Assembly (NCBI GenBank): GCA_025352065.1
Contig: JANXUC010000002.1
Coordinates: forward strand, 1-64,000
Reading direction: 5' to 3'
DNA length: 64,000 nucleotides
From: Acidobacteriaceae bacterium
Lineage (GTDB): Bacteria; Acidobacteriota; Terriglobia; Terriglobales; Acidobacteriaceae
This document shows positions 548 to 57,329 of the stretch, in pieces; position 1 is the stretch's first letter, and every line of letters begins with the position of its first letter. Made by a program: the position numbers and the translations under genes. The notes beneath the pieces are model-generated. The model ran no database searches, had not been told where the DNA came from, and worked only from the letters and a program-made list of their open reading frames with translations.

Positions 548-2746
548 ATGTCGCCAAATGCGGATACCCCAGTAGAACTGTTCGATAAAATCATTCGCCT
601 TTGGGGTGCTCGTCCCGATCCCTCCGAAAGCTTTACCTTTAAACAAATAGCAAATATGGTGTTTGGCCCCGGCACAGATGCTAATGCGTCCATCATCGGT
701 CGCACAATTGTAGATTTTCACAATTATTTTTATCAGCCGGATGGGGCTGTATATCTGTGGCATGTGCGCTGGAAGATGATCGATCAGGATCATCCTGATC
801 TGTTTCCACGAACCGCGAACAACGTATCGCCGATTCCGTCCGGAGGTCCTCTCGGCGACATGCTTCAGGCACTCAACGATGAGATCGGAGCAGTGCGGGA
901 GGAGTTAAGAAACCACCCGATAAAGGCGATGATATCCAGATCGCTCGGGCAAATGCCCGAAGGCGGGTTTTGGTATGAGGCGAAGCTAGAACTTCCCGGG
1001 GATACGGAACTACCTGTGCCAGAGGGCGTGGCAATCCGCCTTCGCTGGCCTAAGCGAATGCACGTGTACCCTTGTGACGCCAAGCTATTAAGTTACGAAC
1101 CTTTGAAGACTGCAATCATCTTCGAAACTGACCAACCGCTCGGCGAAACACATACAAAGAATCTGTTCGAGATCGATCCGAACATAGAGCAGCTAATTCA
1201 AGTAGTCGTTGAGCAGCTCGGCCGAGCGAGCACGTTCAAACACAGAGCTATTTGGCGTTTGATCGAAGGAGACCACGAGCGACGTGAAATGCCATGGTCT
1301 GGGGTATCCGTTAAGGGGCAGCTCGACGATACCCAACTAAATGCTCTGCAATCCTGTCTAAGCCATGACGTCACCTTTCTTTGGGGGCCACCGGGAACAG
1401 GCAAAACCCACACGCTTGGGCGACTGATGGCATCTGCCGCATTGTCGGGTAGACGAATAATTGCTACAGCAATTTCCAACATCGCTGTCGATCAGATGGC
1501 GCTTCATCTCTTGCAAGCTCTGGAGTCGGCAGGTGACGAGGGTATCGCACTTCTCAACGAGGGTCGGATAGTTCGGTTTGGGCACCCACGTGATCCAGCC
1601 GTAACTGCGGAAGCACGCTTCTTTCCTAACAAGACGGAGATTCAACGACTCCGTAAGGAACTTCACGACGCGCAGCAGCGACTGAGTGATCTGCGTGAAG
1701 GTCCCGCGGAGCTCCGCGCAAAGTTGCAGCATGAAATTCTTCACCTAAAGTCCCAGCTGCGAAACCTGACCAAGGATCTGCTAGATGAGGCGCGCATCGT
1801 TCTTACGACTGCAGTTCAAACTTGTATTGAGCCTGGAATTAGGGAACGATCGTTTGATTTTGTGGTGATTGATGAGGCAAGCATGATGCCGATTCCATAT
1901 GTCGCGTGTGTCGGTGCTCTTGGTAAAGATCAGGTCATCATCACCGGAGACTTTCGCCAGCTAGGTCCAATCGCACTATCCCATACTGCAGCGGCTTTTA
2001 GGTGGTTGCACAAGGACGCCTTCGAACTAGTTGGGATCCGCGGGGATTCTCCTCAGCATCAAGCGTTGGCGATGTTAAGAGTGCAACGACGCATGGATCA
2101 GGGAATCTGCGACTTAATAAACAAGCCGTTCTATGCCGGAATACTTGAGACGGCGACCAAACCGCGATCATCGCCACCAATGCCGCCTTTGCCGGACGAA
2201 CCAGCGGTCCTAATCTCCTTTCTTCCCGAGGATGGAAGTGCAGTGGAGCAAACCGTCGATGGTTCTCGTATCAATAAGCAATCCGCCGCGTTCGTGGCCG
2301 ATTTGGTCGCTCAATACCTGAGCAACTATTCGAAGGCAGCCGTGGGAGTCATAGCTCCTTATCGCGGGCAAGTAGCCTATATACGGCGACTCTTGCTAGA
2401 GCGCGCATTGCCAAAGGACCAAGCTGAGCGTTTGCGGTTGGGGACCGTCCACGCATTTCAGGGTTCCGAGGCGGACGTAATTATTTGGGACCTAGTCGAC
2501 ACGCGAGACCACAAGATCGGTCGGCTCTATCACGAAGACCAAGGTGAGAGGCTCGCGAATGTTGCAATCAGTCGAGCCAAAGGCAAACTGGTGATCGTAG
2601 GAGACCCGGACGCTTTCTTCATGGCTCCCGGTAATGAATCTGTTGGCAAGCTCCGCAGCATCCTCGCAATCAATTTCCACTCGAATTCCCCCAGAGTCGT
2701 TGCAGCACAGGACGTCATACGTACCCACGCCGGACGCCCTCGATAA
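548..2746 (+). CDS. UPF1/DNA2-like superfamily 1 helicase (AAA_11/AAA_12)
   Basis: A predicted ATP-dependent DNA or RNA helicase of about 732 residues. The first ~270 residues form an N-terminal region I do not recognise. The SF1 core follows: Walker A GPPGTGKT near residue 280, a charged coiled-coil insertion around 360-410, Walker B VVIDEAS near 440, motif III GDFRQLGP near 465, then APYRGQ, TVHAFQGSEADV near 635 and the arginine-finger motif AISRAKGK near 673. All core motifs look intact. The start is uncertain: an in-frame TTG at 482 would add 22 residues, and neither start has a strong Shine-Dalgarno sequence. It stands alone between an IS remnant and a toxin-antitoxin pair. A defence or repair role is possible, but nothing in the sequence proves it. 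Confidence 0.85.
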   Translation: MSPNADTPVELFDKIIRLWGARPDPSESFTFKQIANMVFGPGTDANASIIGRTIVDFHNYFYQPDGAVYLWHVRWKMIDQDHPDLFPRTANNVSPIPSGGPLGDMLQALNDEIGAVREELRNHPIKAMISRSLGQMPEGGFWYEAKLELPGDTELPVPEGVAIRLRWPKRMHVYPCDAKLLSYEPLKTAIIFETDQPLGETHTKNLFEIDPNIEQLIQVVVEQLGRASTFKHRAIWRLIEGDHERREMPWSGVSVKGQLDDTQLNALQSCLSHDVTFLWGPPGTGKTHTLGRLMASAALSGRRIIATAISNIAVDQMALHLLQALESAGDEGIALLNEGRIVRFGHPRDPAVTAEARFFPNKTEIQRLRKELHDAQQRLSDLREGPAELRAKLQHEILHLKSQLRNLTKDLLDEARIVLTTAVQTCIEPGIRERSFDFVVIDEASMMPIPYVACVGALGKDQVIITGDFRQLGPIALSHTAAAFRWLHKDAFELVGIRGDSPQHQALAMLRVQRRMDQGICDLINKPFYAGILETATKPRSSPPMPPLPDEPAVLISFLPEDGSAVEQTVDGSRINKQSAAFVADLVAQYLSNYSKAAVGVIAPYRGQVAYIRRLLLERALPKDQAERLRLGTVHAFQGSEADVIIWDLVDTRDHKIGRLYHEDQGERLANVAISRAKGKLVIVGDPDAFFMAPGNESVGKLRSILAINFHSNSPRVVAAQDVIRTHAGRPR

Positions 2747-3019
2747 ATCCGGGGAGAAATCCGGGGACAGACGGGACGTTTCCATCCCCATCAGCTCTAA
2801 AGTTGACCTTATGCCGGGTTCTGACGGGCGGCTGGGTGCCCCGGGTTCGCGTCCGTTCTTTGGACGATAACCTGGGCTACGGGACACTCGCAAAGAAAAT
2901 CAAGGTTTTAGGTTTCAGTTGGAGCGAAAGTCGCTGACTCGCGGTGCCTGCAATACCCAGGTTAACGACAGAGAACGTCGTGAACCTGGGGCACCGGTCC
3001 TCTCAGCCTCCAAATTTGT
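2747..3019. other. Intergenic stretch with a loose inverted repeat
   Basis: No gene is supported here. The only structure noticed is a pair of inverted segments, GTGCCCCGGGTTC near 2837 and GAACCTGGGGCAC near 2982, which differ at one position and lie about 130 bases apart. Their meaning is unknown. Confidence 0.4.
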
Positions 3020-3055
3020 TTGTGCTACAATACTCGTTATATTGTGCTACATATA
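3020..3055. promoter_or_regulatory. Two direct repeats upstream of a toxin-antitoxin operon (putative operator)
   Basis: TTGTGCTACA occurs twice, starting at 3020 and 3042, each followed by an AT-rich tail. The 22-base period is about two helical turns. The repeats lie 34-70 bases before the antitoxin start and overlap promoter-like AT-rich sequence (TACAAT, TATAAA). Antitoxins of this type usually repress their own promoter, so an operator is a reasonable inference. Confidence 0.5.
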
Positions 3056-3088
3056 AAGTCTTCATTAAGCCGCCTCAACGGAGAAAAC

Positions 3089-3397
3089 ATGAAGCGTAGT
3101 AGCCAAACCGACGTCTCACCGAGAAGGAATCCCGGCTTCGTTGGCGGCTCCAGCAAGTTCCGCGAGGCGATGGCCATCGCCGAAAGCGAAGGGCTGCTGC
3201 GGGGGGAGAGAACTCAGGTCGTCCGGGGAAGAATGCCCGAAGCGTTGGTGGCGAGAGCCAAGAAACGCACTGGAATCACTTCCGACACGGAGCTCATCGA
3301 GGTAGCGCTGGCCAACCTGGCGGTTGAGGACGATTACGCCAACTGGTTGCTGTCCCGCCGTGGCGTTATTAGTCGCGAGACGGATCTTGAGTTCTGA
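3089..3397 (+). CDS. VapB-like antitoxin
   Basis: A protein of about 102 residues. The ATG at 3089 follows GGAG at 3080-3083, which makes it preferable to more upstream in-frame starts. The N-terminal half is basic and Ser-rich. The segment GRMPEALVARAKKRTGITSDTELIEVALANLA looks like the ribbon-helix-helix/short DNA-binding region of antitoxins that oligomerise and bind their own promoter. It overlaps the PIN-domain gene by 11 bases, and this tight coupling supports the assignment. Two direct repeats just upstream may be its operator. The precise antitoxin family was not identified. Confidence 0.7.
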   Translation: MKRSSQTDVSPRRNPGFVGGSSKFREAMAIAESEGLLRGERTQVVRGRMPEALVARAKKRTGITSDTELIEVALANLAVEDDYANWLLSRRGVISRETDLEF

Positions 3398-36077: not shown

Positions 36078-36108
36078 GAAAGCTGAAGTAGTTGAAAACG
36101 CACCTATA

Positions 36109-36217
36109 AGTTTGTCATTCCGAAACGGCTCCATCGTGAGGAATCTGCTATTTCTCTTAACTGGAAGGGAGCGCAAAGCAGATTCCTCACGATAAGGCTG
36201 TTCGGAATGACAAACTT
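36109..36217. repeat. Full copy of dispersed palindrome family A
   Basis: Left arm TTTGTCATTCCGAAACGG..GAGGAATCTGC and right arm GCAGATTCCTCACGATAAGG..TTCGGAATGACAAA pair almost perfectly, flanking a central AACTGGAAGGGAGCGC segment. It is nearly identical to the element at 36953. The two flank the RDD gene in direct orientation. Confidence 0.9.
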
Positions 36218-36303
36218 CGGTGGAGCTGGAAGACTCCGCCTCTCGCCAACCGTCGCACAAAACCTCTTCCCAAACCCACCCACTTCAGCTATAGTTCCCG
36301 CCC

Positions 36304-36909
36304 ATGACCGACACGCCAATCTTCTGCAATCAATGCGGCCAGCAAAGTGCCGCCGGAGCCACCTTCTGCACCCGCTGCGGTGCCTCACTTGTTTCTGCGG
36401 GTAGCGCGGCCATGCCTCAGACACCGCTCCCCGGAGCCACCTTTGTAGCCCGGCAGTACGGCGGCTTCTGGATTCGCTTCGTTGCCGCCTTGATTGACGG
36501 CATCATCATCTGGGCCGTGTTCCTTCCGCTGCGCTTGGTTTTTGGCGGCGCGTTCGGCCTGGGTCATGCTCTCGGCGGCCAAGGCGATATTGCGCGCAAC
36601 CCCGCCGCCATCGGCATGTTTGCCGCCATGATGTCAGGGATGGCTCTTGTCAATATCGTTGCCGACTGGGTGTACTCCGCCTATTTCGAAAGTTCCGAAC
36701 GCCAAGCCACTCTTGGGAAGATGGCTTTGGGGCTCAAAGTCACGGATCTCAACGGCAATCGCATCTCGTTCGCACAAGCTACCGGACGACACTTCGCCAA
36801 ATGGGTGTCCGCCATCATCCTCATGATTGGTTTCATCATGGCGGGCTTCACCGACCGCAAGCAGGCCTTGCACGACATGATTGCCGGAACCCTGGTTGTG
36901 AAAAACTAA
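36304..36909 (+). CDS. Zinc-ribbon and RDD-domain membrane protein
   Basis: 201 residues. An N-terminal zinc ribbon with two CxxC knuckles (IFCNQCGQQ and FCTRCG) spans 1-25. An RDD domain follows: GGFWIRFVAALIDGIIIWAVF (helix with RxxD), a second membrane region around 95-115 and ATLGKMALGLKVTDLNGNRI leading to a third helix near 160. RDD proteins include a suspected Na+ or Ni2+ transporter and several signalling proteins. Zinc ribbon plus RDD is a common bacterial architecture of unknown task. It is flanked by two almost identical 110-base palindromes. Confidence 0.88.
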   Translation: MTDTPIFCNQCGQQSAAGATFCTRCGASLVSAGSAAMPQTPLPGATFVARQYGGFWIRFVAALIDGIIIWAVFLPLRLVFGGAFGLGHALGGQGDIARNPAAIGMFAAMMSGMALVNIVADWVYSAYFESSERQATLGKMALGLKVTDLNGNRISFAQATGRHFAKWVSAIILMIGFIMAGFTDRKQALHDMIAGTLVVKN

Positions 36910-36952
36910 GGCTGAGCCATGCAAAACGCAATTCGAAGCCAAAAACCTTCTA

Positions 36953-37063
36953 TAAGTTTGTCATTCCGAAACGGCTCCATCGTGAGGAATCTGCTATTTC
37001 TCTTAACTGGAAGGGAACGCAAAGCAGATTCCTCACGGTAAGGCTGTTCGGAATGGCAAACTT
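36953..37063. repeat. Full copy of dispersed palindrome family A, near-twin of the 36109 element
   Basis: It has the same orientation and the same central segment, and differs from the 36109-36217 copy at only a few positions (for example GGAGCGC/GGAACGC, CGATAAGG/CGGTAAGG). A third, weaker half copy starts at 37206. Confidence 0.9.
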
Positions 37064-37205
37064 CTTTGAAATTCCCACCCGTCGCAGGGAACGCGACAGG
37101 GACGTGGTACCCTGTGTTCCGTTACTAAAACCCGAGGGTGCCCCGCCTTCCTTCGCGTTCTTTGCGAAGTAAGGTGGGAGGAAACAAACTCTCCCCACCC
37201 AGCAA

Positions 37206-37240
37206 TTGTCATTCCGAGCAACGCGAGGAATCCCTTTCAC
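37206..37240 (+). repeat. Half copy of dispersed palindrome family A
   Basis: TTGTCATTCCGAGCAACGCG followed by AGGAATCCCTTTC is a degenerate left arm. It precedes the lptC/A gene by about 60 bases. Confidence 0.6.
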
Positions 37241-46202: not shown

Positions 46203-46308
46203 AAAGGGATTCTTCCCCTTCGCAAAGAACGCTCAGGGTCAGAATGACAAAGAGCTGCGACCCAATAGCAGATTTTTCACGATGGAGCCGTTCGGAATGA
46301 CAAATTTC
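46203..46308. repeat. Compound copy of dispersed palindrome family A
   Basis: Two right arms lie in series: GATTCTTCCCCTTCGCAAAG...TCAGAATGACAAAG (46209-46251) and AGCAGATTTTTCACGATGG...TTCGGAATGACAAAT (46266-46305). Both match right-arm sequence of the element at 36109. They fill the VapC-membrane protein gap. Confidence 0.75.
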
Positions 46309-50810: not shown

Positions 50811-50833
50811 GCGGCTGCAAATACCCTCTCAAA

Positions 50834-50868
50834 TTTGTCATTCCGAAGCGCAGCGAGGAATCTGTGCA
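50834..50868 (+). repeat. Half copy of dispersed palindrome family A
   Basis: TTTGTCATTCCGAAGCGCAG followed by CGAGGAATCTGTG is a left arm of family A, lying between two other repeat families. Confidence 0.65.
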
Positions 50869-56393: not shown

Positions 56394-57329
56394 ATGGCGC
56401 GAACTCTTAATACCCAACTCAAAGAGGCCTTAACGGCACGAGTGCGTTACTACCGCGACTTGGGGATTTTCGATTTCTACCGGCGCGATGTGGTGGACGA
56501 CATGCTGAGCGATAGCGCCAACGAACAGCAGATTCCTCACGGTGAGGCTGTTCGGAATGACAATTCCTATCCGGTTGAATATGAAGGTACTTCGCAAGCT
56601 GCGCCCGAGCTCTGGACGGAACAAAATTCGGACCAGTTTCCCGAACCAAATTCTGAACAACGAGATGACATGGCACGAAAAACAGTGGCCGCGCCGGTGG
56701 CGTCGGACCAGAACTTAGTGGTAGCGAAAGCCGAGGCGGGGGTCGCCGACCCAATTGCCGCGCTCAAAATGATTCGCGAGGATATTGGCGACTGCACACG
56801 CTGCAAGCTCCATCAGCAGGGGCGCAAGCAAATTGTATTCGGCGCGGGCAATCCAAAAGCGGAACTGATGTTTGTTGGCGAAGCTCCAGGAGCGGACGAA
56901 GACCAGCAAGGCGAGCCCTTTGTAGGCCGCGCCGGCCAGTTGCTGAACAACATGATCAAGGCGATGGGAATTGCGCGGGAGCAGGTCTATATCGCAAACG
57001 TAGTGAAGTGCCGTCCGCCATCGAACAGAACGCCAGAGCGGGATGAATGCGATACGTGCTCTCCGTTCCTGATGCGGCAGATCGCCGTGGTCAAGCCGAA
57101 AGTCATCGTCGCACTGGGCGCAATTGCAGCAAAAAACCTGCTGGCAGTCGAGTCTTCGTTGGCGAGTCTGCGGGGAAAGTGGCATGAATACCGCGGATGC
57201 AAGCTGGCAGTCACCTACCATCCGGCGTATTTGCTGCGCGATCCACGGCAAAAGGCTGAAGCCTGGAAAGACTTGCAGATGGTGATGAAAGAGCTCGGCC
57301 TGGTGGCGCCGCAGAAAAGCGCGGAGTAG
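56394..57329 (+). CDS. Family 4 uracil-DNA glycosylase with repeat-derived segment
   Basis: 311 residues from ATG 56394 (a TTG 56385 would add three). The first ~40 residues are helical and basic. A dispersed repeat half-copy (56527-56563) is read through as about [19 protein letters not shown] Gln/Glu/Pro-rich linker continues to ~115. The catalytic family 4 domain follows with [57 protein letters not shown] and [12 protein letters not shown]; the four Cys bind an Fe-S cluster. It removes uracil from DNA. The N-terminal half is absent from standard family members. Confidence 0.92.
56527..56563 (+). repeat. Half copy of dispersed palindrome family A inside a CDS
   Basis: AGCAGATTCCTCACGGTGAGG followed by CTGTTCGGAATGACAA matches the right arm of the elements at 36109 and 36953 except for three bases (GATAAG/GGTGAG). 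It lies in frame within the uracil-DNA glycosylase gene and its translation contributes to the N-terminal linker. Confidence 0.85.

Follow-up and report, generated by a model that had tools for sequence, protein, structure and literature searches.

Two nearly identical palindromes enclose a gene for an RDD-family membrane protein in the 64,000-nt stretch of an Acidobacteriaceae draft genome analysed here (the window). Did these repeats bring the gene to its site—as the ends of a composite mobile unit—or was a repeat copied around a gene already in residence? To answer this, we examined the anatomy of the two elements, the distribution of their building blocks and the corresponding locus in related bacteria.

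Two copies of one inverted REP dimer flank the RDD gene

An earlier note on this DNA described two palindromes of ~110 bp, in direct orientation around the RDD gene and matching at nearly every base. Alignment of the two elements, termed A and B (Table 1), bore out this description and placed the reported positions right to within a few bases. Over a length of 115 bp each, with starts 846 bp apart, 112 bases are identical; the mismatches (A/B) fall at 36171 (G/A), 36192 (A/G) and 36210 (A/G), and the BLAST E-value of the match (9.9e-51) rules out chance. As also noted earlier, the elements enclose one gene: RDD is the only sizeable gene between them.

Both elements consist of two inverted REP units of ~37 nt around a short spacer, with palindrome arms at 36108-36217 (A) and 36954-37063 (B). 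For each, folding predicts a single long hairpin (A, −67.7 kcal/mol, z-score −12.7; B, −66.8 kcal/mol, z-score −11.9), and none of 200 shuffled sequences folded as well. Beyond the 115 bp, ungapped flank identity in 10-base bins drops to 0-50%, a loss of similarity that points to a copied element rather than a copied segment. With three differing bases, a contig of 151,762 bases and a gene order as in relatives, an assembly artefact is unlikely. A role as transcription terminator was likewise considered, yet a terminator scan returned no above-expectation site at either element.

Table 1 Features of the RDD locus (window coordinates).
Feature	Coordinates	Strand	Remark
Element A, inverted dimer of CGTC/TGTC-tagged REP units, 27-nt spacer	36104..36218	+	97% full-length match to B
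Left REP unit of A	36112..36148	+	pattern match
Spacer core of A	36154..36176	+	elsewhere in genome only in B
Right REP unit of A	36178..36213	-	pattern match
Element B, second copy of A's dimer	36950..37064	+	3 substitutions vs A
Left REP unit of B	36958..36994	+	pattern match
Spacer core of B	37000..37022	+	
Right REP unit of B	37024..37059	-	two substitutions from A's right unit
DUF4139 protein, 796 aa	33687..36077	+	upstream neighbour
RDD-family membrane protein, N-terminal zinc ribbon, 201 aa	36304..36909	+	resident gene; Pfam RDD E 1.5e-27
LptA/LptC-like LPS transport protein (LptAC), 786 aa	37301..39661	+	downstream neighbour, followed by LptB-like ABC protein

The REP unit is dispersed, the spacer is private to the pair

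A pattern for the single REP unit, which reads about TTGTCATTCCGAACRGYTYTATCGTGAGGAATCTGC in the unit alignment, had 64 matches (36 forward, 28 reverse) across the 4.25-Mb draft genome, as opposed to none for the reversed pattern. Tag and outer stem follow the form TTTGTC-ATTCC...GGAAT, that is, with a CGTC/TGTC-type tag at one end. Within this genome, the unit combines an outer 5-bp stem with a weaker inner one, and single units fold no better than shuffled sequences (z about 0). Units from other genera possess different, matched and longer inner stems (e.g., ACGCC/GGCGT), supporting a hairpin within the unit itself.

Most units in the draft genome are singlets, over which doublets are not over-represented. 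Read by eye, the list of 64 exact-pattern units contains a single inverted pair with its members no more than 150 bp apart, that of A; B and an element on another contig (C37:12503-12595) are further dimers, each with one half off pattern. The latter is the next-best full-length copy, at 77%, among the 40 of 181 first-look candidates that were scored. Longer or multi-unit copies also occur dispersed, namely near 114.7 kb of C37 and at the end of contig C24 (96.8% over 93 bp), and at 87.4 kb of C108 and 21.5 kb of C27 (95% over 148 bp). Inverted dimers with differing spacers exist in other genera of the family (L172, L175, L177); a family-wide scan was positive in at least 11 of 300 genomes, with at most two candidates scored per genome. 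The plasmid records searched contained no match. Within the window, further REP units at 46264-46307, 50831-50860 and 56524-56563 overlap putative ORFs of >450 bp.

The spacer, in turn, was found at only two sites in the whole draft genome—those in A and B—even with up to three mismatches allowed, implying that both dimers are of one origin. The REP halves are less telling. The left halves of A and B are separated by zero edits and the right halves by two, but four other units differ from the left half of A, and a unit on C37 from its right half, by a single edit. Taken singly, the halves thus appear hardly closer between A and B than to some other units, which limits dating; it is the common spacer and the dimer layout that tie A to B. 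The earlier note had asked whether A and B might be no closer to each other than to unrelated copies: this holds approximately for the single halves, not for the spacer or the layout. Its proposal of a duplication stands, in that one dimer was duplicated, with the spacer at two sites only and the repeats at this locus in none of the relatives sampled.

The RDD gene occupies its site without repeats in other genera

Among 30 RDD loci of the family, each retrieved together with flanks of at most 1.5 kb, 21 show an LptAC-like gene beside RDD in the same order. None of the 30 carries the repeat, a 19-nt match in L158 (E 0.047) being the sole similarity. A second, overlapping set—so that counts from the two are not additive—comprised the best 80 of 276 confirmed RDD loci in named GTDB genomes. 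Among these best 80, LptAC follows within 2 kb downstream of RDD in 21; many of the other 59 come from other phyla and were found by RDD similarity alone. The full DUF4139-RDD-LptAC order occurs in three genomes of this set, with a DUF4139-RDD gap of 79-82 bp. Since the upstream sequences of L151, L159 and L164 are the same as those of L204, L197 and L205, these represent three genomes rather than six. Again, the gaps between these neighbouring genes were free of the repeat, and two partial matches of 19-22 nt lay elsewhere in L198 and L201.

All of these comparisons involve other genera; the same genus was not represented among the relatives searched, and a first contig scan with the LptAC protein as query confirmed no relative. 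Whereas the earlier note had allowed for every relative sharing the arrangement, no sampled relative carries the repeats at this locus. When LptAC was taken as the starting point instead, RDD was found upstream at 2 of 18 loci in relatives (L106-L123, ~5 kb of upstream sequence for most), and 56 of 300 family genomes encode RDD at an E-value of 1e-15 or better. RDD has been gained or lost within the family without help from these repeats.

In the window, the DUF4139-RDD and RDD-LptAC gaps measure 226 and 391 bp, respectively. Both exceed those of relatives by the dimers, the downstream gap additionally by two further palindromes. The stretch from a TATAGT box to the ATG of RDD resembles that of three relatives, and A lies upstream of it, a position from which it need not interfere with the promoter of RDD. 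Given the repeat-free RDD-LptAC arrangement in other genera, including the three genomes with the full three-gene order, we judge from gene order that RDD did not arrive with A and B.

The pair as a known kind of repeat

CGTC-tagged REPs, as described by Di Nocera et al. (2013, PMC3733652), are stem-loops with a CGTC tag, often TGTC, at one end; their stem starts with AT and measures 8-9 bp, the loop 4-5 nt, and they often form dimers with spacers of 20-100 bp, with no dedicated transposase in that description. The units reported here share the tag, the AT-starting stem, the dimers, the high copy number and the lack of a bracketed transposase gene, but differ from that account by the predominance of singlets and, in this genome, apparently also by a weak inner stem and a loop larger than 4-5 nt. 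REPINs, in the account of Bertels and Rainey (2011, PMC3116915), comprise two inverted REPs plus spacer, predicted to form a single hairpin and copied as a unit; A and B resemble them as inverted REP doublets forming one predicted hairpin. Classic REPINs in that account are RAYT-linked and mostly doublets, whereas here a RAYT link was sought without success and singlets prevail.

A and B represent the duplication of a CGTC-type REP dimer, with the resident gene in between, and are as such of an ordinary, widespread and already known kind: a small piece of genome clutter rather than a vehicle for the gene. It adds a further case of a known palindromic repeat class in a poorly sampled acidobacterial lineage. 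Beyond that, its value is modest: the private spacer makes such a dimer the record of a single copying event, which bears on what moves CGTC-type REPs.

How the pair arose

Most probably, two local insertion or copying events placed a REPIN-like CGTC/TGTC-tagged REP dimer on either side of the resident RDD gene. The anatomy of the elements, the many-copy unit, the private spacer, the abrupt drop in similarity beyond the element edges and the repeat-free gene order elsewhere all argue for this account. Two inverted units of ~37 nt with a short spacer would allow a single strand to fold into one long hairpin, and the dimer would have been moved or copied as a unit bounded by its tag ends into the gaps upstream and downstream of RDD, in a lineage that presumably already had the DUF4139-RDD-LptAC order. 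Copying may have proceeded via a single-stranded hairpin intermediate, with a Y1/HUH-type transposase supplied in trans, and the second insertion may have been local. The predominance of singlets and the lack of a transposase tied to the unit count against this reading. At both substitutions within the right REP unit it is A that agrees with the family consensus, while B departs from it, suggesting B to be the more drifted and A the less changed copy, which falls short of proving the direction of copying.

The earlier note had also raised a transfer of RDD together with the repeats, making A-RDD-B a composite mobile unit. Near-identical ends around one gene would fit such a unit, yet its cargo should be absent where the repeats are absent, and RDD is present at the repeat-free syntenic site, including in the three genomes with the complete gene order. 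Furthermore, the sole RDD paralogue in the genome is a remote one, with 26% identity in a partial alignment, and not a close second copy, and A sits upstream of the TATAGT-to-ATG stretch that RDD has in common with relatives. The proposal is rejected as extremely improbable. Recombination between the 115-bp direct repeats could, conversely, delete RDD.

The closeness and direct orientation of the dimers would also result from tandem duplication of a segment comprising RDD and a single dimer, if one of the two RDD genes was lost afterwards. By post hoc arithmetic, two copies placed at random in 4.25 Mb would lie within 846 bp of each other with a chance of about 4 in 10,000. Just outside the elements there is also weak likeness, with 8 of 8 bases matching at the left edge and 11 of 12 at the right, scores reached by 41 and 3 of 500 shuffles, respectively. 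Outside the 115 bp the flanks are otherwise unrelated, however, and no RDD remnant was seen in the short gaps, leaving this scenario unlikely. Alternatively, the dimers might have arrived separately long ago and been kept alike by gene conversion. Nearby direct repeats are able to convert each other, and two of the three A/B differences fall in one half; but with the spacer nowhere else in the genome, separate arrivals would require a source no longer present, and we consider this history improbable, slightly more so than tandem duplication. Returning to the favoured double insertion, a broader version of it can be put forward tentatively: CGTC-type REP dimers could themselves be mobile, giving rise to nearby copies of the same orientation via an unlinked Y1/HUH transposase, and the pair would be a recent trace of such an event. 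If so, the enzyme moving such dimers could be identified in Acidobacteriaceae.

Candidate mobilisers and neighbouring palindromes

The genome contains seven matches to Y1-type transposase genes. With flanks of as much as 1.5 kb searched on either side, none of the seven proved to be bracketed by the REP unit, and a RAYT link was therefore rejected. One unit lies near the Y1 gene on contig C85, on one side only and outside that gene's own terminal repeats; by an arithmetic estimate, up to about one unit is expected by chance in the searched flanks. In titles and abstract openings, the papers found on REPIN/RAYT systems, on REPs in Acidobacteria and on CGTC REPs with transposases named no mobiliser of CGTC-type REPs.

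The C85 gene itself (L128, near 2650-3290) has an in-frame stop in the match and lies between inverted repeats beginning GGTGCCCC. This arrangement is like that of the TIRYTs described for Acidobacteria (PMC3733652), and the element is probably TIRYT-like; its terminal repeats show no resemblance to A and B.

Several dispersed REP units (L022, L028, L029, L132, L136, L137, L141) have a leader, TTGAAAAACTCT, in common on their upstream side. A loose form of this motif was met in 14 of 53 unit contexts (54 were taken, one being without anchor), and two leader-bearing loci share 148 bp at 95%.

A second palindrome type, likewise beginning GGTGCCCC, is located at 37137-37180 of the window, just downstream of B, and a palindrome of similar layout at 2835. 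A shorter, single REP-like hairpin (GTCATTCCGAGC...GAGGAATC) occupies 37206-37229, so that, together with B, three palindromic repeats are gathered between RDD and LptAC.
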